A stretch of 64,000 nt of DNA from Bolinopsis microptera. Lineage: Eukaryota; Ctenophora; Tentaculata; Lobata; Bolinopsidae. Shown here one piece after another: positions 23,651 through 64,000 of this stretch; position 1 is the first letter of the stretch; every line of letters starts with the position of its first letter. A model generated the notes under the pieces. That model worked only from the letters and a program-made list of their open reading frames with translations. It had not been told where the DNA came from and did no database searches. Position numbers and translations under genes: made by a program. The stretch covers positions 18,403,571 through 18,467,570 of the forward strand of contig NC_087079.1 of NCBI RefSeq assembly GCF_026151205.1, in the 5' to 3' direction.

Positions 23651-23653
23651 TGA

Positions 23654-35201: not shown

Positions 35202-35229
35202 TTACAGCTGACATAGATTCTCATTTATA

Positions 35230-36450: not shown

Positions 36451-36534
36451 AAAGCTACAGATGCAACCTCAAAATTCCCGTCAAACAACCTTATACGTGA
36501 AAACTATTATCTTGTCAAGGGTAGCTATAAGCGT

Positions 36535-39385: not shown

Positions 39386-39475
39386 AACTCTAATTAGTCA
39401 GTCACTAACTCTAATTAGTTAGTCACTAACTCTAATTAGGTAGTCACTAACTCTAATTAGTTAGTCACTAACTGT
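39386..39475 (+). repeat. 20-21-base tandem repeat, four copies
   Basis: Four copies of CTAATTAGTTAGTCACTAACT with single-base variants, just beyond the LINE tail. Confidence 0.85.
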
Positions 39476-39479
39476 ATAT

Positions 39480-40130: not shown

Positions 40131-40132
40131 AG

Positions 40133-40288
40133 GGGTCGTTCACATATTACGCAATCACTTTTTTTACCATCCCCCCCCCCCCCCCTCCGTAATCAGTTTT
40201 ACACATAGCTATTGTATCAAGATTACACTAGCGTAATCATTTGGAAACCACCTCCCCCTCGGCTGATTACGTAATATGTGAACGACCT
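40133..40288. mobile_element. MITE with C-rich core, short member
   Basis: The ends GGGTCGTTCACATATTACGC and ACGTAATATGTGAACGACC are the same terminal repeats as the element at 22288-22812. The interior (~115 bases) has a short C-run and CTCCCCCTCGGCTGATTACG shared with the longer member. Confidence 0.75.
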
Positions 40289-40289
40289 C

Positions 40290-41260: not shown

Positions 41261-41265
41261 TATGA

Positions 41266-41344
41266 TTACCTGAGGACCCCAGGCTTTAATGTTGGTAAAC
41301 GAATAGAGATTAGGCGGAATGACAGGCTGAGCGCGGCCCAGTAA
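41266..41344 (+). mobile_element. Ultra-short (~80-base) MITE, copy 2, with 8-base target duplication
   Basis: 79 bases, TTACCTGAGGACCCCAGG to GCGCGGCCCAGTAA. It is flanked by perfect AAATATGA repeats (41258-41265 and 41345-41352). Same orientation as copy 1. Confidence 0.85.
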
Positions 41345-41354
41345 AAATATGACA

Positions 41355-42590: not shown

Positions 42591-42840
42591 ACTGCCTGCC
42601 TGCCTGCCAAGATCGATCCAGATGAAATCTGGAACGAGTTTCGTGTCAACGCTTCTCTCCATTTATATCTATCACACATGAGCAAACGCAGCTGGTCAGG
42701 TTCCATTACAGTGTCTTCAAGTAGAACGTCCAGGAAGGTCTTATGTGGTCATCCTTGATAACGCTGGCCATAGGATGGTTGCCAAAAAGAAGTTGTTGAG
42801 CAGGTTGGTCCTGTAGACGGTATGTTACGTGGTTATTGAG
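42590..42840 (-). pseudogene. RTE-like LINE 3' fragment
   Basis: On the minus strand frames read PHKTFLDVLLEDTVMEPDQL followed by RLLMCDRYKWREAL. This resembles the extreme C-terminus of RTE-like reverse transcriptases (G-R-P...D.L..DT....L..LM.DR..WR). Upstream LQDQPAQQLLFG fits the preceding block in a shifted frame. It is a short, broken fragment. Confidence 0.5.
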
Positions 42841-43765
42841 TTATTGACTATTGTATAATGTACACGCGCCTATCAAAATAGGATTTCTATCGTGGGAATA
42901 GCTACAGAGGTATGGAACTATAATTATTATGAGAAACCCCGGCACTGGTCATATCCGGCGGTTTTTACATTTACGAACCGACTAGCTAGACAGCTATTGA
43001 CAGTCTGACAGGGTGGCTCACTCAAATTTGAACTTTGACACGTCCAAATTCCACGTTAAATCGAGGCTTTAATGTAGTAACCAGATTCATTATAAATAAC
43101 ATTTATGTCATGATAATCAATATGACCATCAGCTGGTTAGGCTAGCGTGTAATAAATATGTAATAAATTGTTGGTATGGTGACCAGCCTCACAGAGCTAG
43201 CTCTATGAGGCTGGTCAACAAACCGGTAGGACAATAAGAAAATGTAAAACATGCCCCGTCAATAGGTCTCAGCAAACCTTAAGTTAACATAAGTTGAAAT
43301 ATGCCGTACGGATGCCTATTATGGATCGCTTCCCCCTGGTTTAAAGTTCTGGCTGAAGATTGATTAAAAATGGAATTTTCAACTAAAACGATAAATGAGG
43401 AAGGAATTTAAACAGGCAACAAAGAATTTGCTTCATGGGTCATGTGCTGACATGCACCCTGTTAGCGTTCACGTGCACCCTCCCAGTTTCTAATTCTAGT
43501 AATTTGATCTCATGCAGAATATGCAGCAGGGGTGCCGACCAGAGTAACAGGTCAGTGTTAGCAAGTTAGAACAGTGACTATTGAATGTATGATAGATAAC
43601 AGCCTATACTACAGCGGTGGATCTAAATGTCACAGGTCAAACCCGGGGTGGACTATTTACATTGAGCGTCCCAACGGCTCCTAGCTGACACATGGTAGAA
43701 CCTGGTAAGCTCGGGAAATTGAGTCAAACTTAACCCTAATTGTCATGTCCTCCTGTAGGTTTTAC
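42840..43765. other. Non-genic stretch
   Basis: No supportable coding. It contains a short inverted pair around 43183-43219 (GACCAGCCTC / GAGGCTGGTC). Confidence 0.45.
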
Positions 43766-44073
43766 GGTTCTTTTGCGATAGTCAAAACGCGACAACTAGC
43801 GCTGGATGGCGACAACTAGCGCTGGATGGCGACAATTATCTTACTGGGCCGCGCTCAGCCTGTCATTCCGCCTAATCTCTATCCGGTTGTTTACCAACAT
43901 TAAAGCCTGGGGTCCTCAGGTAACAATTATCGAACATATATATTTTGCGCTGGCCAGCGTTATCCAGCGCTGGATAGCGACAACTAGCGCTGGATGGCGA
44001 CAACTAGCGCTGGATAGCGCTAGTTGTCGCCATCCAGCGCTAGTTGTCGCGTTTTGACTATCGCAAAAGAACC
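43766..44073. mobile_element. Foldback MITE with GCGCTGGAT units, carrying a nested MITE
   Basis: The element begins GGTTCTTTTGCGATAGTCAA and ends in the exact complement. The arms extend into repeated GCGACAACTAGCGCTGGATG units. The ~80-base MITE (43841-43923) is inserted in its left half with a target duplication, so the foldback element is older. Its right end abuts the first homology to the 2.6-kb array. Confidence 0.8.
43841..43923 (-). mobile_element. Ultra-short (~80-base) MITE, copy 3, with 8-base target duplication
   Basis: 83 bases, TTACTGGGCCGCGCTCAGCC to GGGGTCCTCAGGTAA, flanked by CAATTATC at 43833-43840 and 43924-43931. It is the reverse complement of copies 1 and 2. Confidence 0.88.
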
Positions 44074-44506
44074 AAATAACGGACTACCTCATAATCATAT
44101 CAGGCTTGGTCAAATTGTTTATGTCCCCAGAATCAATCTCACCAAATCCAATCTGGACAAAAGGTTTTTCAACTTTGTTCTGAGATCTTTGCTCCAGTAA
44201 TTGGTAATGTTGTAGGTTTATAATAACATAAACCCGCCACGCAAAGGGTTTATATAACAGATCATCCCGCGCTAGCGGGATGATCTGATAAACACTTATA
44301 CGAGTGCGCGCAGCGCACGAGTTTTGTGTTAATATGTAATCCCGAAGCGCCAGCTGAGGGATTACATTTATTTAGCCCTGAGCGTGAAGTGTTTATGGAT
44401 TATAATTATCTCCGGCGATTTCGACAAGGGATTTATACTTTAGAAGAGAGTGATAAAATAGTTTTTATTTCGGAATACGGGTCTGATTTTAGTAATATTT
44501 TCATTT

Positions 44507-44716
44507 CTATTTGTGATGGTGATAACAAGTGATACGATAACGTACTAACAGTCGTTGAACAGGAATTTGGTCAAAGTCATTGAAGTCACGAGCAAATCTG
44601 GATGACTGAAGCCAAGAATTAAATTTGTTTAGAGCCCAGTTGTTGACTTTAACTGTACTGTCCGGAACACGATTGGAAAGCAGTTCATCAATCTGAATGT
44701 CAATCCGATCTGTCAT
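44507..44716 (-). pseudogene. Possible tyrosine-recombinase (Crypton-like) N-terminal fragment
   Basis: A minus-strand frame reads IQIDELLSNRVPDSTVKVNN followed by WALNKFNSWLQS. The pattern resembles the start of the SAM-like DNA-binding domain in Crypton-derived/ZMYM-type tyrosine-recombinase proteins (P..T......L..F..WL). No catalytic domain follows. It is located inside the ~1-kb insertion, so it may be that element's residual coding. Confidence 0.35.
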
Positions 44717-44923
44717 AGTGGAGCAATAGCTTGAACGTTAGCAGGAACAAGAGCTGGAAGGAGAGCAAGCAAAACAATACTATTTTTAGGGCACGGACAA
44801 GGGTAGCTGGCTAGTCGCCAACTTCTCACGCCACGCGTTGGAGAAATTCCAAGAATTAGCTGCTTTGGCAACGTTCCCAGGAATTTGCGTGTAAAAGAAG
44901 TGGACGGTTACGATGTTTCATAT

Positions 44924-45007
44924 CACGTGGTGCGCTTTCGTGTCACGTGGTATAGACTCGGCGTATGCTATTGGTGGCACGTGGTACGCACGTGACGCGC
45001 CCACGTG
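44924..45007. promoter_or_regulatory. Cluster of five CACGTG E-boxes
   Basis: Perfect CACGTG palindromes start at 44924, 44944, 44978, 44989 and 45002. This is the canonical bHLH (USF/MYC/MAX-class) binding core. No gene start is recognisable next to it. Confidence 0.5.
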
Positions 45008-45631
45008 ATCGCGCGTCTAACTGTTCTACTATTATCGAGTTCTAATCAGCAGTATCATTGATTATTGTAAGTCGGAGAATTGAATGATAAACATCAGTTA
45101 CGACTAAAAAGCGGGCCGGGTTTATATAAATTTCCGGGGCGGGATGATATCACCTTGAGATGTTTATCTAACAGCGGGCCGGGCTGAGTGATAATATGAT
45201 CCCGCGTCGAAATCCCGGAAATATTTATAACCTACCAAAACTCGTCGACGGTCTTGTCGTAGTATTTGGAACAAATATTTTACGAGTATCACCTGTCAAA
45301 TCCAATGTACTAAATAAAAGAATTTGTAATCAAAATAATTGGAGCAACATTTAAATAAGAACCATGTCAGCTGTAAGTGTAAGTGTAAGTACAACTACAA
45401 TTTCAGTATAAATGAAATTATAAAAATAAAAGCGATCCTAAAACCGTCAGTAAAATAGAAATATTTGCTTCGCATCAGTTTGAAAACGATACATGAACTA
45501 ATAGTCATACTGCCACCATATTAAATATTCGATCCCAGCCACACCAAATGATTCAAATAACGACTAAAAACACCACAAATAATACATTTATTCTTGCGGA
45601 TGAAGGGTGCGGGCGAACATGGCACATGCAC

Positions 45632-45978
45632 TCATATACTCCCAGGAGTCCCCCGAGGTTTAGTATAAAGCGGTGTTTTAAGTCTAGTAGGGGTCACTGT
45701 CACTGACGCCGGCCTGAACGGGGAACCTATCTTAACTGGAGTAGTTAACATTGAGTTCATAGTTAGGGGCGAGTCCCACTGAGACGAAGTGGATTTGAGA
45801 CGTCTGTAGCTGGCGGTGGTTAGGAAGACGATCCCAATGACGATTAGAAGGACGAGGAGTCCCAGGACGACAGTGGGGAGGAGAGTGCTGATAAGTTCGG
45901 AAAACTCCAGTTTAATGGGAGGTGGAGTTAGGTCGGGTTCTGAGGGTGTTATCAGTACTTCGTACACTTCCTTCTGAC
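45632..45978 (-). CDS. NUP210: NUP210-type terminal exon, copy 1 (most distal)
   Basis: This is the furthest copy from the upstream exons in transcription order. The acceptor is CTGTTCCAACAG (the other copies read CATCAG). It encodes the same 114 residues as the other six: a short lumenal end (QKEVYEVLITPSEPDLTPPP), a membrane helix of about 23 residues (LLPTVVLGLLVLLIVIGIVF) and a basic, Ser/Thr/Pro-rich cytoplasmic tail with TP and SP sites (SPFRPASVTVTPTRLKTP). The AATAAA hexamer is at 45592-45587. The copy uses ATT for the Ile of PIKL, like copy 2. Confidence 0.75.
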
Positions 45979-47122
45979 CTGTTGGAACAGAGTTAGAGAC
46001 TAACATACTGAAGTTATTAGTTTTAGGATTTTACCGATTAATTTGATGAAAGGTGCGAGGAAAAACCTTTCTAACCTTTTAATTGATATTCAGGCAACAT
46101 ATTATTCAGAACATGCTAGATTGAACAGTTTAAATGTTATCAACGCATTTAAATCTGATATTAAACACAATCTTAGCCAATAGCACACTGAATAGACCAG
46201 TTGTTAAAAACGCTCTTTTCAAACATTATACATGAAGTTATACGCAATAAGACTGAACACAGGATTGAGCACATCTCAAAAAATCGTTTAGCCGTACTTA
46301 ACTTATTTGATAACCTTGAGCAACATATTATTCAGAACATGCTAGATTGAACAGTTTAAATGTTATCAATCTGTGAATTTTAAATCTGTGAAATTTTGAA
46401 CAAATTTTTGAAAAATTTCGTGCTTCAAAAATTAATTTTGGTACTAAAAGTTGTGTCTGACTAAGCTCATTACGATCCTGTAAGAATTATTTCTAAATAT
46501 TCAATATTTTAGGAGTCCCACATATAACAGCTCGACGTTATCGTGCTACACGGTGAATTGTCATTATTCACACTTAGAGGCAACTTTTGGTAGGTACCAA
46601 ATTTATCGAAAATCAGAGACAACAAATTCTGTGCCAGCTCATTCATGGCGCTTATTACATAGCAGTGCCGTAGGATGAAAAGTTTGAAAATTGGTTAGAA
46701 ATTTTCAGAAAATGTGTTATTGGACTGCCGATCTGGGGAGCAACCTAGGGCCCTCTATATATTCATGCCCATTGTAGGCTGCTACCCCGATCCCCGAGAC
46801 TTCGTCTTACTTTCGTCTGGTTTCCACTCTCTCTTCATACCAAGTTACTAGCTAGGTAACAAGGTAATCGAGGAGACAGTTTTCAACGTAACAACGATTT
46901 CAGCCGGTTCGGACAAATCTTTGTTCTACCAACTGAACAACAAATCAGTGCACTGCCATCTGTACGCGTCCTCACACACTGTTCTTAAACCAGAGTTAGC
47001 TTTATACCAACATAGTTCACGAAATATTTACTTGTATGTACCCCTAATCATCGAATTACCAGCCAATTTCACGCTATTACAACTCCCTGCAACTCCACTG
47101 CAACTCCAAGCTCTTAATTACG

Positions 47123-47361
47123 CCTTATATGGATGTGTAATGAGCTGTGCAAATATCACGTGCTAGAAGCAGCTCTTAATTGCGCCTTATATGGTGCGTA
47201 ATCGGGTCTGCATGATAGCTCAATGTCACGCGCTATACATCCAACCAGTAAACGCGCTCAATCGATATCTCGTGACTGTCACGTGACAGCTATCCAAGGA
47301 AATTCTCTATATGGCGCCTCCGGTGTAAACTAGGAAAGAGCTAGTTTGAGCCTTAAATAGG
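47123..47361 (+). promoter_or_regulatory. CArG/E-box/TATA-like module (unit 1; repeated in every unit)
   Basis: Two perfect CArG boxes CCTTATATGG (47123-47132 and 47185-47194), CACGTG at 47157-47162, the palindrome GTCACGTGAC at 47278-47287, and CTTAAATAG near 47352 followed by the PLAT-type exon ~150 bases on. CArG boxes bind SRF and CACGTG binds bHLH factors. The equivalent module is present in units 2-6 with little change. Whether it drives transcription is inference. Confidence 0.5.
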
Positions 47362-47503
47362 CGGACACCGCTAATATTTATTAACTTCTACCATCACCCA
47401 AGCAGGTGGCGGTGGAGCTGAAAGTTAGCCTGTGTGAGATCACTATTCCTGCGATATCAGACAAGAGCACGCTTCACACATTCTAGCGAGCCTCCCTTTA
47501 CAG

Positions 47504-47645
47504 GAGGATTCTCATGGAATTGAAGTAAAGAAGTACTTATACTTTACGTGTAACAGATGGTTAGTCAGATCTGAAGACGACGGGGAGATCGTCCGGGAGC
47601 TGATCGCTACGGATGACAACGGAGTGCCTATAAGCTCTGCAGAAG
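47504..47645 (+). CDS. PLAT-domain exon, copy 1
   Basis: 142 bases between a good acceptor (CCTCCCTTTACAG) and a donor (AAG|GTGGGC). It translates in one frame containing KKYLYFTCNRWLVRSEDDGE and IVRELIA, the C-terminal strands of a PLAT/LH2 domain (F.C..WL....DDG...REL) as in LOXHD1 or polycystin-like proteins. It encodes about a third of a PLAT domain; no flanking PLAT exons are seen in the window. Relative to later copies it differs by amino-acid changes only (His/Tyr, Val/Ala, Asp/Glu and others). It is probably a captured exon, and its expression is unknown. Confidence 0.5.
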
Positions 47646-48313
47646 GTGGGCCTCTATTTGAACTGTGTGGGGTTCAGAGCTGTTGTACGGAACAATGTTG
47701 ATTACACTTCAGGTTTAATAACCTGCACTATCAACAATGTTGATAACACAAGCGATAGCGCCCTATCTGATGTCTCTTCTTCCCAGTTTCAGATCACTAG
47801 GCCTCTAACCAGACGAAGTTTTCGTTACAAAAAACCGGAAATCGTTATCTCTTTAACTTTTGACAAAAGGTATTTCAACTTTGTTCTGAGATCTTTGCTC
47901 CAGTAATTAGTAATGTTGTAGGTTTATAACCTACCAAGACTCGTCGACGGTCTTGTCGTAGTATTTCGGAACAAATATTTTACGAGTATCACCTGTTAAA
48001 TCCAATGTACTAAATAAAAGAATTTGTAATCAAAATAATTGTAGCAACATTTAAATAAGAACCATGTCAGCTGTAAGTACAATTTCAGTATAAATGAAAT
48101 TATAAAAATAAAAGCAATCCTAAAACCTTCAGTAAAATTGAAATACTTGCTTCGCATCAGTTTGAAAACGATACATGAACTAATATTCACACTGCCACCA
48201 TATTCAATATTCGATCCCAGCCACACCAAATGATTCAAATAACGACTAAAAACACCACAAATAATACATTTATTCTTGCGGATGAAGGGTGCGGGCGAAC
48301 ATGGCACATGCAC

Positions 48314-48660
48314 TCATATACTCCCAGGAGTCCCCCGAGGTTTAGTATAAAGCGGTGTTTTAAGTCTAGTAGGGGTCACTGTCACTGACGCCGGCCTGAA
48401 CGGGGAACCTATCTTAACTGGAGTAGTTAACATTGAGTTCATAGTTAGGGGCGAGTCCCACTGAGACGAAGTGGATTTGAGACGTCTGTAGCTGGCGGTG
48501 GTTAGGAAGACGATCCCAATGACGATTAGAAGGACGAGGAGTCCCAGGACGACAGTGGGGAGGAGAGTGCTGATAAGTTCGGAAAACTCCAGTTTAATGG
48601 GAGGTGGAGTTAGGTCGGGTTCTGAGGGTGTTATCAGTACTTCGTACACTTCCTTCTGAC
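48314..48660 (-). CDS. NUP210: NUP210-type terminal exon, copy 2
   Basis: Acceptor CTGTTCCATCAG, AATAAA at 48274-48269, same 114-residue product. Base sequence equals copy 1 within the exon. The following spacer retains GATGAAAGGTGCGAGGAAAGAG and CAGCAGTTTCTAG as in copy 7, then jumps directly to AATCAGAGACAACAAATTC. A ~0.4-kb deletion therefore makes this unit the shortest. Confidence 0.75.
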
Positions 48661-49658
48661 CTGATGGAACAGAGTTAGAGACTAACATACTGAAGTTATT
48701 AGTTTTAACATTTTACCGATTAATTTGATGAAAGGTGCGAGGAAAGAGTTTGGTGTTTTTACCAGCAGTTTCTAGAATCAGAGACAACAAATTCTGTGCC
48801 AGCTCATGGCGCTTATTACATATAATAGCAGTGGCGTAGGACTGATGAAAAGTTTGAAAATTAGAAATTTTCAGAAAATGTGTTATTGGACTGCCGATCT
48901 GGGGAGCAACCTAGGGCCCTCTATATATTCATGCCCATTGTAGGCTGCTACCCCGATCCCCGAGACTTCGTCTTACTTTCGTCTGGTTTCCACTCTCTCT
49001 TCATACCAAGTTACTAGCTAGGTAACAAGGTAATCGAGGAGACAGTTTTCAACGTAACAACGATTTCAGCCGGTTCGGACAAATCTTTGTTCTACCAACT
49101 GAACAACAAATCAGTGCACTGCCATCTGTACGCGTCCTCACACACTGTTCTTAAACCAGAGTTAGCTTTATACCAACATAGTTCACGAAATATTTACTTG
49201 TATGTACCCCTAATCATCGAATTACCACCCAATTTCACGCTATTACAACTCCCTGCAACTCCACTGCTCTTAATTACGCCTTATATGGATGTGTAATGAG
49301 CTGTGCAAATATCACGTGCTAGAAGCAGCTCTTAATTGCGCCTTATATGGTGCGTAATCGGGTCTGCATGATAGCTCAATGTCACGCGCTATACATCCAA
49401 CCAGTAAACGCGCTCAATCGATATCTCGTGACTGTCACGTGACAGCTATCCAAGGAAATTCTCTATATGGCGCCTCCAGTGTAAACTAGGAAAGAGCTAG
49501 TTTGAGCCTTAAATATGCGGGATATTTAATATTTATTAACTTCTACCATCACCCAAGCAGGTGGCGGTGGAGCTGAAAGTTGGCCTGTGTGAGATCGGTA
49601 TTCCTGCGATATCAGACAAGAGCACGCTTCACACACTCTGGCGAGCCTCCCTTTACAG

Positions 49659-49800
49659 GAGGACTCTTATGGAATTAAAGAAAAGAAGTACTTATACTTT
49701 ACGTGTAACAGATGGTTAACCAGATCTGAAGACGACGGGGAGATCGTCCGGGAGCAGATCGCTACGGATGAAAACGGAGTGCCTATAAGCTCTGCAGAAG
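49659..49800 (+). CDS. PLAT-domain exon, copy 2
   Basis: Open across 142 bases with the same splice signals. It reads EDSYGIKEKK at the start, WLTRSEDDGE in the core, and has Gln in place of Leu in the REL motif (REQIA), a change at a conserved PLAT position. Confidence 0.45.
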
Positions 49801-50340
49801 GTGGGCCTCTATTTGAACTGCGTGGGGTTCAGAGTTGTACGGAACAATGTTGATTACACTTCAGGTTTAATAACCTGCACTATTAACAATGTTGATAACA
49901 CAAGCGATAGCGCCCTATCTGATGTCTCTTCTTCCCAGTTTCAGATCACTAGGCCTCTAACCAGACGAGGTTTTCGTTACAAAAAACCGGAAATCGTTAT
50001 CTCTTTAACTTTTGGTTTCTGGGCTCGTCTAAATTTCTTCGAAGTATAAAATTATCTGCATTGATCTGAAACGAATTATTAAAATAACGGACTACCTCAT
50101 ATCAGGCTTGGTCAAATTGTTTATGTCCCCAGAATCAATCTCACCAATCTGGACAAAAGCTTTTTCAACTTTGTTCTGAGATCTTTGCTCCAGTAATTGG
50201 TAATGTTGTAGGTTTATAACCTACCAAGACTCGTCGACGGTCTTGTCGTAGTATTCGGAACAAATATTTTACGAGTATCACCTGTTAAATCCAATGTACT
50301 AAATAAAAGAATTTGTAATCAAAATAATTGTAGCAACATT

Positions 50341-50397
50341 TAAATAAGAACCATGTCAGCTGTTAGTAGTACTAACAGCTGACATGGTTCTTATTTA
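50341..50397. repeat. 57-base perfect palindrome (unit 3)
   Basis: Arms of 28 bases (TAAATAAGAACCATGTCAGC to GTTAGTA, then complement) around a single central G. The other units have only the left arm start (AAGAACCATGTCAGCTGTAAG), so the right arm is a local inverted copy of existing sequence, found again only at 52976-53032. Confidence 0.95.
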
Positions 50398-50643
50398 CTA
50401 ATAGTACAATTTCAGTATTTTAAATGAAATTATAAAAATAAAAGCAATCCTAAAACCGTCAGTTAAATTGAAATACTTGCTTCGCATCAGTTTGAAAACG
50501 ATACATGAACTAATAGTCACACTGCCACCATGTTCAATATTCGATCCCAGCCACACCAAATGATTCAAATAACGACTAAAAACACCACAAATAATACATT
50601 TATTCTTGCGGATGAAGGGTGCGGGCGAACATGGCACATGCAC

Positions 50644-50990
50644 TCATATACTCCCAGGAGTCCCCCGAGGTTTAGTATAAAGCGGTGTTTTAAGTCTAGT
50701 AGGGGTCACTGTCACTGACGCCGGCCTGAACGGGGAACCTATCTTAACTGGAGTAGTTAACATTGAGTTCATAGTTAGGGGCGAGTCCCACTGAGACGAA
50801 GTGGATTTGAGACGTCTGTAGCTGGCGGTGGTTAGGAAGACGATCCCAATGACGATTAGAAGGACGAGGAGTCCCAGGACGACAGTGGGGAGGAGAGTGC
50901 TGATAAGTTCGGAAAACTCCAGTTTGATGGGAGGTGGAGTTAGGTCGGGTTCTGAGGGTGTTATCAGTACTTCGTACACTTCCTTCTGAC
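50644..50990 (-). CDS. NUP210: NUP210-type terminal exon, copy 3
   Basis: AATAAA at 50604-50599 and acceptor CATCAG. It has ATC instead of ATT for Ile in PIKL, shared with copies 4-7. Product unchanged. Upstream of the acceptor the spacer switches to the AT-rich type (GTAATACAATATTTGTGATA). Confidence 0.75.
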
Positions 50991-52268
50991 CTGATGGAAC
51001 AGAGTTAGAGACTAACATACTGAAGTTATTAGTTTTAACATTTTACCGATTATTTGTAATACAATATTTGTGATATTATGTTAGTAATTAAAACTAATTA
51101 AAAGAATTCAAACTTGCAAATTTCAATTTGCAGTTTCTGAATGTTATCAATCTGTGGATTTTTAATCTGTGAAATTTTGAACAAATTTTTGAAAAATTTC
51201 GTGCTTCAAAAATTAATTTTGGTACTAAAAGTTGCGTCTGACTAAGCTCATTACGATCCTGTAAGAATTATGTCAAAATATTCAATATGTTAGGAGTCCC
51301 ACATACAGCTCGACGTTATCGTGCTACACGGTGAATTTTCATTATTCACACTTAGAGGCAACTTTTGGTACCAAATTTATCGAAAATCAGAGACAACAAA
51401 TTCTGTGCCAGCTCATGGCGCTTATTACATATAATAGCAGTGGCGTAGCGACTGATGAAAAGTTTGAAAATTAGAAATTTTCAGAAAATGTGTTATTGGA
51501 CTGCCGATTTGGGGAGCAACCTAGGGCCCTCTATATATTCATGCCCATTGTAGGCTGCTACCCCGATCCCCGAGACTTCGTCTTACTTTCGTCTGGTTTC
51601 CACTCTCTCTTCATACCAAGTTACTAGCTAGGTAACAAGGTAATCGAGGAGACAGTTTTCGACGTAACAACGATTTCAGCCGGTTCGGACAAATCTTTGT
51701 TCTACCAACTGAACAACAAATCAGTGCACTGCCATCTGTACGCGTCCTCACACACTGTTCTTAAACCAGAGTTAGCTTTATACCAACATAGTTCACGAAA
51801 TATTTACTTGTATGTACCCCTAATCATCGAATTACCACCCAATTTCACGCTATTACAACTCCCTGCAACTCCACTGCTCTTAATTACGCCTTATATGGAT
51901 GTGTAATGAGCTGTGCAAATATCACGTGCTAGAAGCAGCTCTTAATTGCGCCTTATATGGTGCGTAATCGGGTCTGCATGATAGCTCAATGTCACGCGCT
52001 ATACATCCAACCAGTAAACGCGCTCAATCGATATCTCGTGACTGTCACGTGACAGCTATCCAAGGAAATTCTCTATATGGCGCTTCCGGTGTAAACTAGG
52101 AAAGAGCTAGTTTGAGCCTTAAATATGCGGGATATTTAATATTTATTAACTTCTACCATCACCCAAGCAGGTGGCGGTGGAGCTGAAAGTTGGCCTGTGT
52201 GAGATCGCTATTCCTGCGATATCAGACAAGAGCACGCTTCACACATTCTGGCGAGCCTCCCTTTACAG

Positions 52269-52410
52269 GAGGACTCTTATGGAATTAAAGAAAAGGAGTA
52301 CTTATACTTTACGTGTAACAGATGGTTAGCCAGATCTGAAGACGACGGGGAGATCGTCCGGGAGCTGATCGCTACGGATGAAAACGGAGTGCCTATAAGC
52401 TCTGCAGAAG
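52269..52410 (+). CDS. PLAT-domain exon, copy 3
   Basis: Open, with WLARSEDDGE in the core. A Lys-to-Glu change precedes YLYFTC (KEKEYLYF). Splice signals conserved. Confidence 0.45.
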
Positions 52411-52975
52411 GTGGGCCTCTATTTGAACTGTGTGGGGTTCAGAGTTATACAGAACAATGTTGATTGCACTTCAGGTTTAATAACCTGCACTATTAACAAT
52501 GTTGATGACACAATTGCGATAGCGCCCTATCTGATGTCTCTTCTTCCCAGTTTCAGATCACTAGGCCTCTAACCAGACGAAGTTTTCGTTACAAAAAACC
52601 GGAAATCGTTATCTCTTTAACTTTTGAAGTAAGGCCCTGGCCAGTAAGGGTTTCTGGGCTCGTCTAAATTTCTTCGAAGTATAAAATTATCTGCATTGAT
52701 CTGAAACGAATTATTAAAATAACGGACTACCTCATATAAGGCTTGGTCACATTGTTTATGTCCCCAGAATCAATCTCACCAATCTGGACAAAAGGTTTTT
52801 CAACTTTGTTCTGAGATCTTTGCTCCAGTAATTGGTAATGTTGTAGGTTTATAACCTACCAAGACTCGTCGACGGTCTTGTCGTAGTATTTGGAACAAAT
52901 ATTTTACGAGTATCACCTGTTAAATCCAATGTACTAAATAAAAGAATTTGTAATCAAAATAATTGTAGCAACATT

Positions 52976-53032
52976 TAAATAAGAACCATGTCAGCTGTTA
53001 GTAGTACTAACAGCTGACATGGTTCTTATTTA
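52976..53032. repeat. 57-base perfect palindrome (unit 4)
   Basis: Identical to the palindrome at 50341-50397. This links units 3 and 4 as sister duplicates. Confidence 0.95.
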
Positions 53033-53278
53033 CTAATAGTACAATTTCAGTATTTTAAATGAAATTATAAAAATAAAAGCAATCCTAAAACCGTCAGTTA
53101 AATTGAAATACTTGCTTCGCATCAGTTTGAAAACGATACATGAACTAATAGTCACACTGCCACCATGTTCAATATTCGATCCCAGCCACACCAAATGATT
53201 CAAATAACGACTAAAAACACCACAAATAATACATTTATTCTTGCGGATGAAGGGTGCGGGCGAACATGGCACATGCAC

Positions 53279-53625
53279 TCATATACTCCCAGGAGTCCCC
53301 CGAGGTTTAGTATAAAGCGGTGTTTTAAGTCTAGTAGGGGTCACTGTCACTGACGCCGGCCTGAACGGGGAACCTATCTTAACTGGAGTAGTTAACATTG
53401 AGTTCATAGTTAGGGGCGAGTCCCACTGAGACGAAGTGGATTTGAGACGTCTGTAGCTGGCGGTGGTTAGGAAGACGATCCCAATGACGATTAGAAGGAC
53501 GAGGAGTCCCAGGACGACAGTGGGGAGGAGAGTGCTGATAAGTTCGGAAAACTCCAGTTTGATGGGAGGTGGAGTTAGGTCGGGTTCTGAGGGTGTTATC
53601 AGTACTTCGTACACTTCCTTCTGAC
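53279..53625 (-). CDS. NUP210: NUP210-type terminal exon, copy 4
   Basis: Exon bases identical to copy 3; AATAAA at 53239-53234; acceptor CATCAG. Together with the shared palindrome this makes it the sister of copy 3. Confidence 0.75.
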
Positions 53626-54902
53626 CTGATGGAACAGAGTTAGAGACTAACATACTGAAGTTATTAGTTTTAACATTTTACCGATTATTTGTAATACAAT
53701 ATTTGTGATATTATGTTAGTAATTAAAACTAATTAAAAGAATTCAAACTTGCAAATTTCAATTTGCAGTTTCTGAATGTTATCAATCTGTGGATTTTTAA
53801 TCTGTGAAATTTTGAACAAATTTTTGAAAAATTTCGTGCTTCAAAAATTAATTTTGGTACTAAAAGTTGCGTCTGACTAAGCTCATTACGATCCTGTAAG
53901 AATTATGTCAAAATATTCAATATGTTAGGAGTCCCACATACAGCTCGACGTTATCGTGCTACACGGTGAATTTTCATTATTCACACTTAGAGGCAACTTT
54001 TGGTACCAAATTTATCGAAAATCAGAGACAACAAATTCTGTGCCAGCTCATGGCGCTTATTACATATAATAGCAGTGGCGTAGGACTGATGAAAAGTTTG
54101 AAAATTAGAAATTTTCAGAAAATGTGTTATTGGACTGCCGATCTGGGGAGCAACCTAGGGCCCTCTATATATTCATGCCCATTGTAGGCTGCTACCCCGA
54201 TCCCCGAGACTTCGTCTTACTTTCGTCTGGTTTCCACTCTCTCTTCATACCAAGTTACTAGCTAGGTAACAAGGTAATCGAGGAGACAGTTTTCAACGTA
54301 ACAACGATTTCAGCCGGTTCGGACAAATCTTTGTTCTACCAACTGAACAACAAATCAGTGCACTGCCATCTGTACGCGTCCTCACACACTGTTCTTAAAC
54401 CAGAGTTAGCTTTATACCAACATAGTTCACGAAATATTTACTTGTATGTACCCCTAATCATCGAATTACCACCCAATTTCACGCTATTACAACTCCCTGC
54501 AACTCCACTGCTCTTAATTACGCCTTATATGGATGTGTAATGAGCTGTGCAAATATCACGTGCTAGAAGCAGCTCTTAATTGCGCCTTATATGGTGCGTA
54601 ATCGGGTCTGCATGATAGCTCAATGTCACGCGCTATACATCCAACCAGTAAACGCGCTCAATCGATATCTCGTGACTGTCACGTGACAGCTATCCAAGGA
54701 AATTCTCTATATGGCGCCTCCGGTGTAAACTAGGAAAGAGCTAGTTTGAGCCTTAAATAGGCGGGATATTTAATATTTATTAACTTCTACCATCACCCAA
54801 GCAGGTGGCGGTGGAGCTGAAAGTTGGCCTGTGTGAGATCGCTATTCCTGCGATATCAGACAAGAGCACGCTTCACACATTCTGGCGAGCCTCCCTTTAC
54901 AG

Positions 54903-55044
54903 GAGGACTCTTATGGAATTAAAGAAAAGAAGTACTTATACTTTACGTGTAACAGATGGTTAGCCAGATCTGAAGACGACGGGGAGATCGTCCGGGAGCT
55001 GATCGCTACGGATGAAAACGGAGTGCCTATAAGCTCTGCAGAAG
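54903..55044 (+). CDS. PLAT-domain exon, copy 4
   Basis: Open; reads GIKEKKYLYFTC and WLARSEDDGE. It differs from copy 3 by Glu-to-Lys before YLYF. Confidence 0.45.
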
Positions 55045-55882
55045 GTGGGCCTCTATTTGAACTGTGTGGGGTTCAGAGTTATACAGAACAATGTTGATTG
55101 CACTTCAGGTTTAATAACCTGCACTATTAACAATGTTGATGACACAATGCGATAGCGCCCTATCTGATGTCTCTTCTTCCCAGTTTCAGATCACTAGGCC
55201 TCTAACCAGACGAAGTTTTCGTTACAAAAAACCGGAAATCGTTATCTCTTTAACTTTTGAAGTAAGGCCCTGGCCAGTAAGGGTTTCTGGGCTCGTCTAA
55301 ATTTCTTCGAAGTATAAAATTATCTGCATTGATCTGAAACGAATTATTAAAATAACGGACTACCTCATATAAGGCTTGGTCACATTGTTTATGTCCCCAG
55401 AATCAATCTCACCAATCTGGACAAAAGGTTTTTCAACTTTGTTCTGAGATCTTTGCTCCAGTAATTGGTAATGTTGTAGGTTTATAACCTACCAAGACTC
55501 GTCGACGGTCTTGTCGTAGTATTTGGAACAAATATTTTACGAGTATCACCTGTTAAATCCAATGTACTAAATAAAAGAATTTGTAATCAAAATAATTGTA
55601 GCAACATTTAAATAAGAACCATGTCAGCTGTAAGTACAACTACAATTTCAGTATAAATGAAATTATAAAAATAAAAGCAATCCTAAAACCGTCAGTAAAA
55701 TTGAAATATTTGCTTCGCATCACTTTGAAAACGATACATGAACTAATAGTCACACTGCCACCATATTCAATGTTCGATCCCAGCCACAGTCCACACCAAA
55801 TGATTCAAATAACGACTAAAACACCACAAATAATACATTTATTCTTGCGGATGAAGGGTGCGGGCGAACATGGCACATGCAC

Positions 55883-56229
55883 TCATATACTCCCAGGAGT
55901 CCCCCGAGGTTTAGTATAAAGCGGTGTTTTAAGTCTAGTAGGGGTCACTGTCACTGACGCCGGCCTGAACGGGGAACCTATCTTAACTGGAGTAGTTAAC
56001 ATTGAGTTCATAGTTAGGGGCGAGTCCCACTGAGACGAAGTGGATTTGAGACGTCTGTAGCTGGCGGTGGTTAGGAAGACGATCCCAATGACGATTAGAA
56101 GGACGAGGAGTCCCAGGACGACAGTGGGGAGGAGAGTGCTGATAAGTTCGGAAAACTCCAGTTTGATGGGAGGTGGAGTTAGGTCGGGTTCTGAGGGTGT
56201 TATCAGTACTTCGTACACTTCCTTCTGAC
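55883..56229 (-). CDS. NUP210: NUP210-type terminal exon, copy 5
   Basis: Exon bases as copies 3 and 4; AATAAA at 55843-55838. The adjoining 3' UTR carries the CACAGTCCACACC variant shared only with copy 6 and lacks the palindrome. Confidence 0.75.
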
Positions 56230-57516
56230 CTGATGGAACAGAGTTAGAGACTAACATACTGAAGTTATTAGTTTTAACATTTTACCGATTATTTGTAATA
56301 CAATATTTGTGATATTATGTTAGTAATTAAAACTAATTAAAAGAATTCAAACTTGCAAATTTCAATTTGCAGTTTCTGAATGTTATCAATCTGTGGATTT
56401 TTAATCTGTGAAATTTTGAACAAATTTTTGAAAAATTTCGTGCTTCAAAAATTAATTTTGGTACTAAAAGTTGCGTCTGACTAAGCTCATTACGATCCTG
56501 TAAGAATTATGTCAAAATATTCAATATGTTAGGAGTCCCACATACAGCTCGACGTTATCGTGCTACACGGTGAATTTTCATTATTCACACTTAGAGGCAA
56601 CTTTTGGTACCAAATTTATCGAAAATCAGAGACAACAAATTCTGTGCCAGCTCATGGCGCTTATTACATATAATAGCAGTGGCGTAGGACTGATGAAAAG
56701 TTTGAAAATTAGAAATTTTCAGAAAATGTGTTATTGGACTGCCGATCTGGGGAGCAACCTAGGGCCCTCTATATATTCATGCCCATTGTAGGCTGCTACC
56801 CCGATCCCCGAGACTTCGTCTTACTTTCGTCTGGTTTCCACTCTCTCTTCATACCAAGTTACTAGCTAGGTAACAAGGTAATCGAGGAGACAGTTTTCAA
56901 CGTAACAACGATTTCAGCCGGTTCGGACAAATCTTTGTTCTACCAACTGAACAACAAATCAGTGCACTGCCATCTGTACGCGTCCTCACACACTGTTCTT
57001 AAACCAGAGTTAGCTTTATACCAACATAGTTCACGAAATATTTACTTGTATGTACCCCTAATCATCGAATTACCACCCAATTTCACGCTATTACAACTCC
57101 CTGCAACTCCACTGCAACTCCAAGCTCTTAATTACGCCTTATATGGATGTGTAATGAGCTGTGCAAATATCACGTGCTAGAAGCAGCTCTTAATTGCGCC
57201 TTATATGGTGCGTAATCGGGTCTGCATGATAGCTCAATGTCACGCGCTATACATCCAACCAGTAAACGCGCTCAATCGATATCTCGTGACTGTCACGTGA
57301 CAGCTATCCAAGGAAATTCTCTATATGGCGCCTCCGGTGTAAACTAGGAAAGAGCTAGTTTGAGCCTTAAATAGGCGGGATATTTAATATTTATTAACTT
57401 CTACCATCACCCAAGCAGGTGGCGGTGGAGCTGAAAGTTGGCCTGTGTGAGATCGCTATTCCTGCGATATCAGACAAGAGCACGCTTCACACATTCTGGC
57501 GAGCCTCCCTTTACAG

Positions 57517-57658
57517 GAGGACTCTTATGGAATTAAAGAAAAGGAGTACTTATACTTTACGTGTAACAGATGGTTAGCCAGATCTGAAGACGACGGGGAG
57601 ATCGTCCGGGAGCTGATCGCTACGGATGAAAACGGAGTGCCTATAAGCTCTGCAGAAG
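57517..57658 (+). CDS. PLAT-domain exon, copy 5
   Basis: Open; KEKEYLYF variant as copy 3, WLARSEDDGE core. Splice signals conserved. Confidence 0.45.
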
Positions 57659-58497
57659 GTGGGCCTCTATTTGAACTGTGTGGGGTTCAGAGTTATACAG
57701 AACAATGTTGATTGCACTTCAGGTTTAATAACCTGCACTATTAACAATGTTGATGACACAATTGCGATAGCGCCCTATCTGATGTCTCTTCTTCCCAGTT
57801 TCAGATCACTAGGCCTCTAACCAGACGAAGTTTTCGTTACAAAAAACCGGAAATCGTTATCTCTTTAACTTTTGAAGTAAGGCCCTGGCCAGTAAGGGTT
57901 TCTGGGCTCGTCTAAATTTCTTCGAAGTATAAAATTATCTGCATTGATCTGAAACGAATTATTAAAATAACGGACTACCTCATATAAGGCTTGGTCACAT
58001 TGTTTATGTCCCCAGAATCAATCTCACCAATCTGGACAAAAGGTTTTTCAACTTTGTTCTGAGATCTTTGCTCCAGTAATTGGTAATGTTGTAGGTTTAT
58101 AACCTACCAAGACTCGTCGACGGTCTTGTCGTAGTATTTGGAACAAATATTTTACGAGTATCACCTGTTAAATCCAATGTACTAAATAAAAGAATTTGTA
58201 ATCAAAATAATTGTAGCAACATTTAAATAAGAACCATGTCAGCTGTAAGTACAACTACAATTTCAGTATAAATGAAATTATAAAAATAAAAGCAATCCTA
58301 AAACCGTCAGTAAAATTGAAATATTTGCTTCGCATCACTTTGAAAACGATACATGAACTAATAGTCACACTGCCACCATATTCAATGTTCGATCCCAGCC
58401 ACAGTCCACACCAAATGATTCAAATAACGACTAAAACACCACAAATAATACATTTATTCTTGCGGATGAAGGGTGCGGGCGAACATGGCACATGCAC

Positions 58498-58844
58498 TCA
58501 TATACTCCCAGGAGTCCCCCGAGGTTTAGTATAAAGCGGTGTTTTAAGTCTAGTAGGGGTCACTGTCACTGACGCCGGCCTGAACGGGGAACCTATCTTA
58601 ACTGGAGTAGTTAACATTGAGTTCATGGTTAGGGGCGAGTCCCACTGAGACGAAGTGGATTTGAGACGTCTGTAGCTGGCGGTGGTAAGGAAGACGATCC
58701 CAATGACGATTAGAAGGACGAGGAGTCCCAGGACGACAGTGGGGAGGAGAGTGCTGATAAGTTCGGAAAACTCCAGTTTGATGGGAGGTGGAGTTAGGTC
58801 GGGTTCTGAGGGTGTTATCAGTACTTCGTACACTTCCTTCTGAC
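58498..58844 (-). CDS. NUP210: NUP210-type terminal exon, copy 6
   Basis: Two private base changes, in the Thr codon of LTM (ACT to ACC) and the Leu codon of FLTT (CTA to CTT). Both are silent, so the product is unchanged. AATAAA at 58458-58453. Confidence 0.75.
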
Positions 58845-60130
58845 CTGATGGAACAGAGTTAGAGACTAACATACTGAAGTTATTAGTTTTAACATTTTAC
58901 CGATTATTTGTAATACAATATTTGTGATATTATGTTAGTAATTAAAACTAATTAAAAGAATTCAAACTTGCAAATTTCAATTTGCAGTTTCTGAATGTTA
59001 TCAATCTGTGGATTTTTAATCTGTGAAATTTTGAACAAATTTTTGAAAAATTTCGTGCTTCAAAAATTAATTTTGGTACTAAAAGTTGCGTCTGACTAAG
59101 CTCATTACGATCCTGTAAGAATTATGTCAAAATATTCAATATGTTAGGAGTCCCACATACAGCTCGACGTTATCGTGCTACACGGTGAATTTTCATTATT
59201 CACACTTAGAGGCAACTTTTGGTACCAAATTTATCGAAAATCAGAGACAACAAATTCTGTGCCAGCTCATGGCGCTTATTACATATAATAGCAGTGGCGT
59301 AGGACTGATGAAAAGTTTGAAAATTAGAAATTTTCAGAAAATGTGTTATTGGACTGCCGATCTGGGGAGCAACCTAGGGCCCTCTATATATTCATGCCCA
59401 TTGTAGGCTGCTACCCCGATCCCCGAGACTTCGTCTTACTTTCGTCTGGTTTCCACTCTCTCTTCATACCAAGTTACTAGCTAGGTAACAAGGTAATCGA
59501 GGAGACAGTTTTCAACGTAACAACGATTTCAGCCGGTTCGGACAAATCTTTATTCTACCAACTGAACAACAAATCAGTGCACTGCCATCTGTACGCGTCC
59601 TCACACACTGTTCTTAAACCAGAGTTAGCTTTATACCAACATAGTTCACGAAATATTTACTTGTATGTACCCCTAATCATCGAATTACCACCCAATTTCA
59701 CGCTATTACAACTCCCTGCAACTCCACTGCAACTCCAAGCTCTTAATTACGCCTTATATGGATGTGTAATGAGCTGTGCAAATATCACGTGCTAGAAGCA
59801 GCTCTTAATTGCGCCTTATATGGTGCGTAATCGGGTCTGCATGATAGCTCAATGTCACGCGCTATACATCCAACCAGTAAACGCGCTCAATCGATATCTC
59901 GTGACTGTCACGTGACAGCTATCCAAGGAAATTCTCTATATGGCGCCTCCGGTGTAAACTAGGAAAGAGCTAGTTTGAGCCTTAAATAGGCGGGATATTT
60001 AATATTATTAACTTCTACCATCACCCAAGCAGGTGGCGGTGGAGCTGAAAGTTGGCCTGTGTGAGATCGCTATTCCTGCGATATCAGACAAGAGCACGCT
60101 TCACACATTCTGGCGAGCCTCCCTTTACAG

Positions 60131-60272
60131 GAGGACTCTTATGGAATTAAAGAAAAGAAGTACTTATACTTTACGTGTAACAGATGGTTAGCCAGATCTG
60201 AAGACGACGGGGAGATCGTCCGGGAGCTGATCGCTACGGATGAAAACGGAGTGCCTATAAGCTCTGCAGAAG
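60131..60272 (+). CDS. PLAT-domain exon, copy 6
   Basis: Open; KEKKYLYF variant as copy 4, WLARSEDDGE core. Downstream this unit lacks the AGG present after CAGATCACT in the other units, so any further reading frame there differs between units. Confidence 0.45.
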
Positions 60273-61093
60273 GTGGGCCTCTATTTGAACTGTGTGGGGT
60301 TCAGAGTTGTACGGAACAATGTTGATTACACTTCAGGTTTAATAACCTGCACTATTAACAATGTTGATAACACAAGCGATAGCGCCCTATCTGATGTCTC
60401 TTCTTCCCAGTTTCAGATCACTGCCTCTAACCAGACGAAGTTTTCGTTACAAAAAACCGGAAATCGTTATCTCTTTAAAGTAAGGCCCTGGCCAGTAAGG
60501 GTTTCTGGGCTCGTCTAAATTTCTTCGAAGTATAAAATTATCTGCATTGATCTGAAACGAATTATTAAAATAACGGACTACCTCATATAAGGCTTGGTCA
60601 AATTGTTTATGTCCCCAGAATCAATCTCACCAATCTGGACAAAAGGTTTTTCAACTTTGTTCTGAGATCTTTGCTCCAGTAATTGGTAATGTTGTAGGTT
60701 TATAACCTACCAAGACTCGTCGACGGTCTTGTCGTAGTATTTGGAACAAATATTTTACGAGTATCACCTGTTAAATCCAATGTACTAAATAAAAGAATTT
60801 GTAATCAAAATAATTGTAGCAACATTTAAATAAGAACCATGTCAGCTGTAAGTACAACTACAATTTCAGTATAAATGAAATTATAAAAATAAAAGCAATC
60901 CTAAAACTGTCAGTTAAATTGAAATACTTGCTTCGCATCAGTTTGAAAACGATACATGAACTAATAGTCACACTGCCACCATATTCAATATTCGATCCCA
61001 GCCACACCAAATGATTCAAATAACGACTAAAACACCACAAATAATACATTTATGCTTGCGGATGAAGGGTGCGGGCGAACATGGCACATGCAC

Positions 61094-61440
61094 TCATATA
61101 CTCCCAGGAGTCCCCCGGGGTTTTGTATAAAGCGGTGTTTTAAGTCTAGTAGGGGTCACTGTCACTGACGCCGGCCTGAACGGGGAACCTATCTTAACTG
61201 GAGTAGTTAACATTGAGTTCATAGTTAGGGGCGAGTCCCACTGAGACGAAGTGGATTTGAGACGTCTGTAGCTGGCGGTGGTTAGGAAGACGATCCCAAT
61301 GACGATTAGAAGGACGAGGAGTCCCAGGACGACAGTGGGGAGGAGAGTGCTGATAAGTTCGGAAAACTCCAGTTTGATGGGAGGTGGAGTTAGGTCGGGT
61401 TCTGAGGGTGTTATCAGTACTTCGTACACTTCCTTCTGAC
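61094..61440 (-). CDS. NUP210: NUP210 terminal exon, copy 7 (proximal to upstream exons)
   Basis: The copy directly contiguous with the upstream exons and presumably the ancestral position. It joins exon n-1 in phase (G|GT, glycine) after acceptor CTCTTCCATCAG. The product is the lumenal end, a membrane helix (about residues 32-54 of 114) and the TP/SP-rich tail identical to all other copies. Two private silent changes lie in the YTKPRG stretch (ACT to ACA, CCT to CCC). The hexamer at 61054-61049 is CATAAA, where all other copies have AATAAA. Confidence 0.78.
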
Positions 61441-61592
61441 CTGATGGAAGAGAGTTAGAGACTACTGAAGTTATTAGTTTTAGGATTTTACCGATTAATT
61501 TGATGAAAGGTGCGAGGCAAGAGTTTGGTGTTTTTACCAGCAGTTTCTAGCGAAACAAAACAAAGCAGCTAACCCAAGACCCAAGTACTAAC

Positions 61593-61719
61593 CAGAAGTA
61601 GGACAGAGAAAAGTGAGAGAATGGACAGCCTGGGTGTTCCAGTTGAGCAGGGATAGGTGGAAGTGAGACGAGGTTTTAATAATGTTCAGATCACCGCCAG
61701 CTCTGTCGTCTAACGTCAC
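61593..61719 (-). CDS. NUP210: NUP210 exon n-1 (lumenal domain)
   Basis: 127 bases, acceptor CCTTGTTCAG, donor GTTAGT. It reads VTLDDRAGGDLNIIKTSSHF followed by HLSLLNWNTQAVHSLTFLCP and TSG. It enters in phase 0 and exits in phase 1, which matches every copy of the terminal exon. The pattern of a beta-rich segment followed by L.F..P.T.Q just before the membrane helix parallels the C-terminal lumenal part of NUP210. It is single-copy in the window. Confidence 0.72.
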
Positions 61720-61947
61720 CTGAACAAGGTTCCAGCTTTGAGCTAGTTTGTAATTTTATAAATAAATATAAAATTATATAAATAATAGACTGACCCGACG
61801 GTCACTGCATTGCCTGGGGAGTGGCGTCATGTTTCTCTATGCTAATGTTTTGGAGAATTGGCTACCTAGAAAATATCGGATTGTGCGAAGCAAAACTTTA
61901 AAAGGCAAGACAGAGTGGTTCTCTACCCCCTAGTCTATAATATTTAC

Positions 61948-62039
61948 CTGAACAAGCGAAAATTCTCCCTCCACAAGGAAGATATCAGTAGTAGGACTCT
62001 CTGAAGAGAGAGAAGTCTTCTCTCCAGATAACTTAAAAC
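61948..62039 (-). CDS. NUP210: NUP210 exon n-2 (lumenal domain)
   Basis: 92 bases, acceptor TTTCTACAG, donor GTAAAT. It reads FKLSGEKTSLSSESPTTDIF and LVEGEFSLVQ, in phase with both neighbours (2 bases, 30 codons). The order FxxxxxxxxLS..SP....f.....e......V is that of the NUP210 region following the 'VPF' block. Confidence 0.7.
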
Positions 62040-62224
62040 CTGTAGAAAGTTATGAAACTTGCAGTTAGTGGTACGTTAAAGTGTCTGTATCTGTTATTAG
62101 TACGGTCTACCAAGATAATCTCTAGTCACGATGTGTGATGTCATAACACGTGTGTCATACTCGAAGTCTACTCGAAAAAGTAATTGTTTCTGGAGGTTAA
62201 AAATGTAAGGGCAAGTTTACTCAC

Positions 62225-62305
62225 GTGATACGAATGGTATCTGGATGGAGCTGGATACAGCACCCTTTACTTTTACAGTCACCAGCGGAGATACGGTCGA
62301 TACAG
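62225..62305 (-). CDS. NUP210: NUP210 exon n-3 (lumenal domain)
   Basis: 81 bases, acceptor ATTTTTTGCAG, donor GTGAGTAAAC. It reads VSTVSPLVTVKVKGAVSSSI then QIPFVS, joining exon n-2 in phase. The 'V.V.G.....IQIPF' stretch corresponds to a conserved lumenal strand of gp210-type proteins. NUP210 is ~1,900 residues in animals, so most of the gene must lie beyond the window or be missing; no further exon is recognisable to the right. Confidence 0.68.
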
Positions 62306-63090
62306 CTGCAAAAAATAATCGGTTAGATCTGCTGAATAAGTGGTTTAATTGGTGGTTTTGTAACTAATATGATACTTAAGTTTCTCACTTTCTGTCCCTT
62401 CTCTCTTTCTCCTTTCTGTCCCTCCCTCACAGACTTACCTTACATTCCGTAATTTTTAATTAAGTTTGAGTGTGTTCTTTCACTCTCACTGGTAATATTT
62501 CATAATTTTGTTTGAGGTATGTACATTTTACTTCGGTCACTTGAAATTGCTTTTTTTCGGAGGCTTCGGTGCTGGTTTCGACTGAGCGGGTTCATACTTT
62601 TGCAACTTCTTAACTGCCAAAATTGTTACACTAGTTGGCCATTGCATTGGTAGACACAATCTTAGCAAAATACTGCTAAATTGCAGTATTAAATTGCAGT
62701 ACCTATTAAATTACAGTATTACATTTTCATATTAAATACGCAAACGATAGCCATCTTGTATGCCATGCTCCCGGAAATTATTAGACTGAAAATAGTCCAA
62801 ATTTCAAAGAATATCTTTATAATCATTAATGTAATATCTTAATCTCGGTATCGTGTTATTGCAACGGTCATCATGTATAATGTTCTATTCAGTATTCTCA
62901 ACAGTCGATATATGTAAACTATAAGCATTTGAATAAGATGTGGGTAATAATAGGGAGGCGGTGCAAGCCTTTCAAACAGATTAACAGATCAAGTTAAATT
63001 ATATTACGTGTCATATCAGCTTTAAATTGATATTACAACCCTGTCCATTAAGAAGGTGGTAGCCACGTGACCACTTTCATCCATTCAGCT
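62306..63090. other. Intronic/intergenic stretch
   Basis: AT-rich with pyrimidine tracts near 62395-62430. One donor-like site (minus, GTAAGT near 62432) has no open frame preceding it. No gene supported. Confidence 0.4.
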
Positions 63091-63094
63091 AATA

Positions 63095-63775
63095 TTCATT
63101 ATTCAGCCAACATATTATTCAGAACATGCTAGATTGAACAGTTTAAATGTTATCAATCTGTGAATTTTTAATCTGTGAAATTTTGAACAAATTTTTGAAA
63201 AATTTCGTGCTAAAAGTTGCGTCTGACTAAGCTCATTACGATCCTGTAAGAATTATTTCAAAATATTCAATATGTTAGGAGTCCCACATACAGCTCGACG
63301 TTATCGTGCTACACGGTGAATTTTCATTATTCACACTTAGAGGCATTTTTTGGTACCAAATTTATCGATCAAAATCAGAGACAACAAATTCTGTGCCAGC
63401 TCATGGCGCTTATTACATAGCAGTGCCGTAGGATGAAAAGTTTGAAAATTAGTTACAAATTTTCAGAAAATGTGTTATTGGACTGCCGATCTGGGGAGCA
63501 ACCTAGGGCCCTCTATATATTCATGCCCATTGTAGGCTGCATCCCCGATCCCCGAGACTTCGTCTTACTTTCGTCTGGTTTCCACTCTCTCTTCATACCA
63601 AGTTACTAGCTAGGTAACAAGGTAATCGAGGAGACAGTTTTCAACGTAACAACGATTTCAGCCGGTTCGGACAAATCTTTATTCTAACCATTTGAACAAC
63701 AAATCAGTGCACTTCCATCTGTACGCGCCCTCACACACTGTTCTAAAACCAAAGTTAACTTTATAACCAACATAG
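63095..63775 (+). repeat. Displaced partial copy of the array unit
   Basis: Matches the central part of unit 1 (about 46315-47020): CATATTATTCAGAACATGCT, CTCGACGTTATCGTGCTACA, TGGACTGCCGATCTGGGGAG and AACTAGCTAGGTAACAAGG-like blocks. The match is lost near 63775. It lies upstream of the NUP210 exons in the minus-strand sense, so it may be where the array spacer was derived from. Confidence 0.85.
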
Positions 63776-64000
63776 TTTATATAAACAAAAGCTCTAAGAA
63801 ACAGATAGTAAACAAAGTAAACATTTCTGTCCCCTAATCTTTCTCAAACAAAAGTCATGCAATTTGCATACTTCTCCATTTAACTCTATTCTGAGCAATT
63901 AACGTTAAATAGTTCAAATCACATAAATTATTTAACGATAATTTTCGGACACTAAGGTCGTGTAGAATCAGTGAGAAAAGGTTGACCGGTTCCCCCCCTT
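63776..64000. other. Non-genic end of window
   Basis: AT-rich; no feature recognised. Confidence 0.4.

Follow-up and report, generated by a model that had tools for sequence, protein, structure and literature searches.

We analysed the final 64 kb of a contig of the ctenophore Bolinopsis microptera (NC_087079.1, here C8, which ends at 18467570), that is, C8:18403571-18467570, referred to below as the window. Its minus strand carries the putative 3' end of a NUP210-like gene, consisting of three exons (A, B and C) followed by a tandem array of copies of a terminal exon, D (Table 1). The window has a guanine-cytosine (GC) content of 39.7%; an excerpt of a published description of the genome gives 13 chromosomes, 265 Mb, 346 scaffolds and 38.5% GC (PMC11797021), and the genome that we searched comprised 264,652,675 bases in 232 contigs. 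The end of C8 is not demonstrated to be a chromosome end, because TTAGGGTTAGGG is absent from the window.

Terminal exon copies in the window

When joined in phase to D, exons A to C give a reading frame of 214 amino acids, in which a 19-residue stretch starting at residue 132, with a mean hydropathy of 3.05, marks a strongly hydrophobic helix. Exon D is 347 bp long and occurs seven times, in a repeat unit of ~2.6 kb; identity to copy 1 ranges from 98.8% to 99.4% across copies 2-7. Each of the seven is preceded by an AG acceptor, keeps its frame open and closes with the identical ...KPRGTPGSI and a stop, and each has a poly(A) hexamer at one fixed place (CATAAA in copy 1, AATAAA in copies 2-7). 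The gap between exon C and the first copy is 152 bp, and seven complete terminal exons follow the exon C donor within the window. A first-pass annotation of this sequence had described the seven terminal exons with their acceptors, stops and hexamers, three upstream exons (62305-61593) in phase with them, and a protein tail that stays constant from copy to copy. All of these features are present in the window at the coordinates that it gave, with splice borders and frame in agreement.

Table 1. Features of the window discussed in the text (positions within the window)
Feature	Position	Strand	Remark
Whole window	1..64000	none	lies at contig end; second version, collinear with C8:~16470000-16528429; direct comparison
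Exon A, 81 bp	62225..62305	minus	AG/GT borders, in-phase frame; opens the readable tail of 214 amino acids
Exon B, 92 bp	61948..62039	minus	AG/GT borders, in-phase frame
Exon C, 127 bp, penultimate	61593..61719	minus	AG/GT borders, in-phase frame
Terminal exon D, copy 1	61094..61440	minus	CATAAA; carries transmembrane helix and tail of ~60 amino acids
Terminal exon D, copy 2	58498..58844	minus	AATAAA; unit alignment, acceptor/frame/stop check
Terminal exon D, copy 3	55883..56229	minus	AATAAA; unit alignment, acceptor/frame/stop check
Terminal exon D, copy 4	53279..53625	minus	AATAAA; unit alignment, acceptor/frame/stop check
Terminal exon D, copy 5	50644..50990	minus	AATAAA; unit alignment, acceptor/frame/stop check
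Terminal exon D, copy 6	48314..48660	minus	AATAAA; preceded by longer intron C-D piece than copies 2-5
Terminal exon D, copy 7	45632..45978	minus	AATAAA; unit alignment, acceptor/frame/stop check
Dispersed repeat in the unit, ~0.9-1 kb (unit 1 shown)	59176..60164	minus	also on C2, C7, C9, C11, C12 and C13
Incomplete copy of the repeat region of the unit, lying upstream of exon A	63146..63777	minus	~92% identity
Insertion of ~1 kb in the copy 7 unit	44223..45224	none	alignment break with 7-bp overlap; TTATAAA on both flanks

Putative assignment to a NUP210-like gene

In genome-wide searches, three of five NUP210 Ig domain models gave matches that exceeded the Pfam cut-off. These lie without exception on the minus strand of C8, upstream of the exon A-D cassettes described below and ordered toward them: domain 1 at C8:16714878-16714979 (31.3 bits), domain 2 at C8:16705967-16708512 (best 39.6 bits) and domain 7 at C8:16693073-16693487 (best 43.2 bits). 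Direct scans of C8 gave two further, weak matches that also fall in order, to domain 3 at ~16697.3-16697.8 kb (20.4 and 22.4 bits versus a cut-off of 27) and to domain 15 at ~16668.4 kb (15.8 bits, E 0.011), and the same kind of scan also gave unrelated sub-cut-off matches with E of 0.04-0.09. NUP210 ends in one helix and a short tail, and the tail in vertebrates is comparable in length to the ~60 residues found here.

Several results speak against the assignment. Genome-wide, the domain 15 model found nothing over cut-off, and the domain 16 model gave no match at exons A-D and two below cut-off, on C6 and C7. The four window exons, which are short and split, matched no Pfam family at E<=10; against PDB they gave two non-significant matches only, neither of them NUP210, and PDB searches with two upstream peptides returned nothing. 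Because the window exons lack a Pfam match and the genome-wide searches with domains 15 and 16 found nothing over cut-off, exons A-D are tied to the upstream NUP210 exons by position. The name NUP210 given in the first-pass annotation is thus backed by the ordered Ig domains on the same strand, but a profile search of the four exons themselves found no similarity to it. By position, not by sequence, we infer with good confidence that exons A-D are the end of NUP210.

One alternative is that exons A-D form part of a separate gene downstream of NUP210 that encodes a different single-pass membrane protein, which would agree with the lack of a sequence match to NUP210 models and with the ~44 kb that lie between the last, weak NUP210 domain match and exon A. 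We consider this doubtful, as Pfam scans of the minus strand of C8:16626000-16665999 recognised no gene (one sub-cut-off match), one helix with a tail of ~60 residues fits the end of NUP210, and no other candidate end was found for the NUP210 locus.

Second version of the locus and copy number

Direct sequence comparison showed that C8:18398416-18467570, which includes the window, is collinear with C8:16465000-16528429, referred to here as the internal version. There were zero differences in 11 successive 1-kb blocks from 18399394 and in seven from 18440762; between these identical blocks the differences increase gradually, with many single-base insertions and deletions (indels) in both directions. 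From C8:16516464 to ~16525400 the internal version resembles raw reads. Each kb there has 59-134 mismatches, and its 46-77 deletion runs contrast with 3-13 insertion runs; of the 628 deletion runs, 417 are 1 bp long. This trace would fit gap filling with unpolished reads; according to an excerpt of the assembly report, the steps used were wtdbg, TGS-GapCloser gap closing, haplotig removal and pilon polishing (PMC10232365). The presence of zero-difference blocks beside 1-bp-indel and raw-read-like stretches suggests that one locus was probably assembled twice on C8.

Farther left, a run of N begins at C8:18369287 (seen to 18370999), outside the compared piece, and two probes to the left of that piece, one of them more than half N, did not match the guessed internal places. 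A genome search with a 10-kb piece of the left flank, in which the best 34 of 8217 candidates were scored, returned mostly a 4.3-kb repeat; the internal copy was not among the matches because only these 34 were scored, and it was identified by the direct comparison.

A genuine recent segmental duplication, so that the animal carries two such loci, would explain why collinearity extends over at least 69 kb, why the two versions have seven and five D exons, and why they diverge by ~2% around A-D1. However, letter-identical stretches of 11 kb and 7 kb beside differences that are largely 1-bp indels point to one molecule assembled twice, as do the position of the copy at the contig end and the N run farther left, and we regard such a duplication as unlikely. 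Some observations nonetheless sit poorly with a single locus. At worst, one 1.4-kb piece aligns at 88%; in addition to the ~2% divergence, the hexamer of the first D is CATAAA in the window versus AATAAA in the internal version, and four amino acids differ in exons B and C. The 88% piece and the divergence, hexamer and residue differences may reflect two alleles, a mosaic or a genuine segmental duplication.

A genome-wide search with the 214-amino-acid protein, in which all 34 candidates were scored, found 30 matches, each of them on C8; it did not list three D copies of raw quality, and poor copies elsewhere can likewise be missed. In the internal version, five D matches (16525871, 16523404, 16521019, 16518633 and 16516054) come after the last A-C set. 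Two more cassettes are situated upstream of this set, one A-D (D at 16532801-16533147) and one B-D (D at 16540545-16540891), and an N gap lies past them at C8:16548409-16548508. Beyond this gap, C8:16593732-16640601 matches 16482917-16548408 in order, with pieces that are mostly 86-98% identical and some rearranged (16600000-16605999 was not included in the comparison), and is a probable other haplotype. Two A-D cassettes lie within it, with D at 16616727-16617073 in one and at 16622912-16623258 in the other; D-only units were not detected there. The extra cassettes on C8 have AG/GT borders.

Exon C thus has more than one copy in the genome, and one version of the locus was found to carry the D-only array. 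The first-pass annotation had placed all seven D copies behind a single penultimate exon, which holds inside the window but not in the genome, where extra cassettes lie upstream; its count of seven likewise stands for the window, whereas the internal version has five. The D copy number is unsettled between five and seven. The internal version is of poor quality exactly at the copy-number region, so seven may be right.

Variation among the copies and use of the terminal exons

Among the seven window D copies, variation occurs at 5 of 116 third positions and 20 of 391 downstream sites, but at none of the 231 first and second positions; the downstream count ends 757 bases past the exon start, where an insertion interrupts copy 7. 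All five substitutions, at exon offsets 64, 157, 217, 316 and 322, are silent, and they distinguish some of the copies. First and second positions differ from downstream sites (Fisher, p = 9e-5; 0.005 without copy 7) and from third positions (p = 0.004), and the chance of five silent changes out of five is 0.0015-0.002, given that 27-29% of random changes are silent; these p values are rough, as the copies are not independent. The first D of the internal version (X1, C8:16525871-16525525) was excluded from this reading because indels break its frame. In the other D copies outside the window, which are not part of the seven-copy count, exon D has one amino-acid change each in X_c2 and X_c3 and none in X5, Y_c1 and Y_c2. 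In exon B, one residue is E in the window versus D in five other cassettes; further changes in exons A-C, some of which are perhaps sequence errors, number three in X1 and one in X_c2.

The silent-only pattern would fit either young copies of a selected exon or the use of several copies, and cannot separate the two; we read it as the probable result of a selected copy having been duplicated recently through unequal exchange. If the D copies were instead used as alternative last exons, exon C would join any one copy, and the resulting transcripts would encode one protein but differ in 3' untranslated region (UTR) and poly(A) site. Acceptor, frame, stop and hexamer are intact in every window copy, albeit with the weaker CATAAA in the first, and the coding changes are only silent while the part downstream varies at about the third-position rate, as such use would predict. 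Yet copy 1, with a complete acceptor, stop and hexamer, lies only 152 bp past exon C, the upstream cassettes bring their own D, and the first D of the internal version has AATAAA. Furthermore, the silent-only pattern amounts to five sites and is equally expected for young copies of one selected exon, and the probable second haplotype yielded no D-only unit. We therefore hold such use to be improbable. Less probable still is a polymorphic array of interchangeable terminal exons in a nuclear-pore membrane protein gene, kept protein-identical by selection, with several copies used and copy number varying between haplotypes, so that a single protein would come with a range of 3' ends. Chance similarity as the source of the array is excluded by the repeat unit of ~2.6 kb.

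D copies 2-5 share a common junction, at which downstream sequence passes into intron C-D at TAATCGGTAAAAT, and copies 6 and 7 retain longer, differing pieces of this intron. The array therefore formed through at least two junctions, probably three. The dispersed repeat within the unit (Table 1) also occurs in other tandem arrays and may have helped unequal exchange here. It is arrayed at C7:17869305-17880778 with ~3.53-kb spacing and copies that are ~99.5-99.75% identical, recurs at C2:793605-826360 with a 5.3-kb period in a unit that also contains an open frame with a membrane-helix-like stretch at its end, and forms a loose cluster at C13:2100092-2237604; C2, C7, C11, C12 and C13 are each 15-23 Mb long. 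The TTATAAA on both sides of the insertion in the copy 7 unit resembles a target-site duplication. Elsewhere in the window, the 4.3-kb repeat occupies 35000-39300, occurs at many genome sites with 95-100% identity, overlaps a plus-strand open stretch of 824 codons (36433-38904) and is probably a young retrotransposon. Complex tandem repeats with periods including 43 bp and 95 bp lie at 11199-12475 and 17340-18437. An Rfam search of window positions 44000-64000 gave no matches, and a transfer RNA (tRNA) search of the window found none.

Taken together, the window is likely to contain the recently and repeatedly duplicated 3' end of a NUP210-like gene, present here in a redundant assembly of one C8 locus, with the later D copies mostly spares. 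The gene would end in two A-D cassettes in one probable haplotype, and in two A-D cassettes and one B-D cassette, plus the D-only run of ~2.6-kb units, in the other. The duplications probably arose around intron C-D and the repeat-rich flanks, through unequal recombination or through slippage during replication, and the array would exist once per haplotype that has it, with five or seven D exons. A transcript would be completed by the first cassette that it reaches, where the D nearest to its exon C would be spliced and cleaved, leaving the later copies as mostly silent spares. The protein identity of the D copies would then reflect their youth and their derivation from a selected exon through turnover of the array. 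The array offers a natural test of which identical terminal exon a transcript uses.

False assembly duplications, as presented in an excerpt of PMC9516828, resemble the arrangement seen here, in that the window is a near-identical collinear copy at a contig end, and a probable haplotype joined across a gap lies beside the internal copy. They would explain only the outer duplication of the locus; among the tandem units there are substitutions in addition to indels. A copy number taken from one assembled stretch may reflect a double assembly of its locus. Apart from this, a gene in a repeat-rich genome has a 3' end that seems to be duplicating now, with window copies that differ only silently.

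We know of no terminal-exon array at NUP210. A literature search found no paper on NUP210 exon duplication, a NUP210 terminal exon array or ctenophore NUP210, and nothing on tandem-duplicated terminal exons as alternative last exons, which does not establish their absence from print. The matches it did give were, judged by title, on a different subject for a NUP210 terminal exon (PMC11027413), and on lacewing venom for exon duplication with alternative last exons (PMC12758981). As in NUP210/gp210, a run of Ig-like domains lies upstream on the same strand and is followed by a hydrophobic helix and a tail of ~60 residues; unlike NUP210/gp210, the last four exons here have no detectable model match and the 3' end is multiplied. 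As in tandem exon duplication and tandem alternative exons, the copies are arranged head to tail and keep their splice sites and frame. In the classical cases of tandem alternative exons the copies have diversified, whereas here the encoded protein is identical throughout the window.

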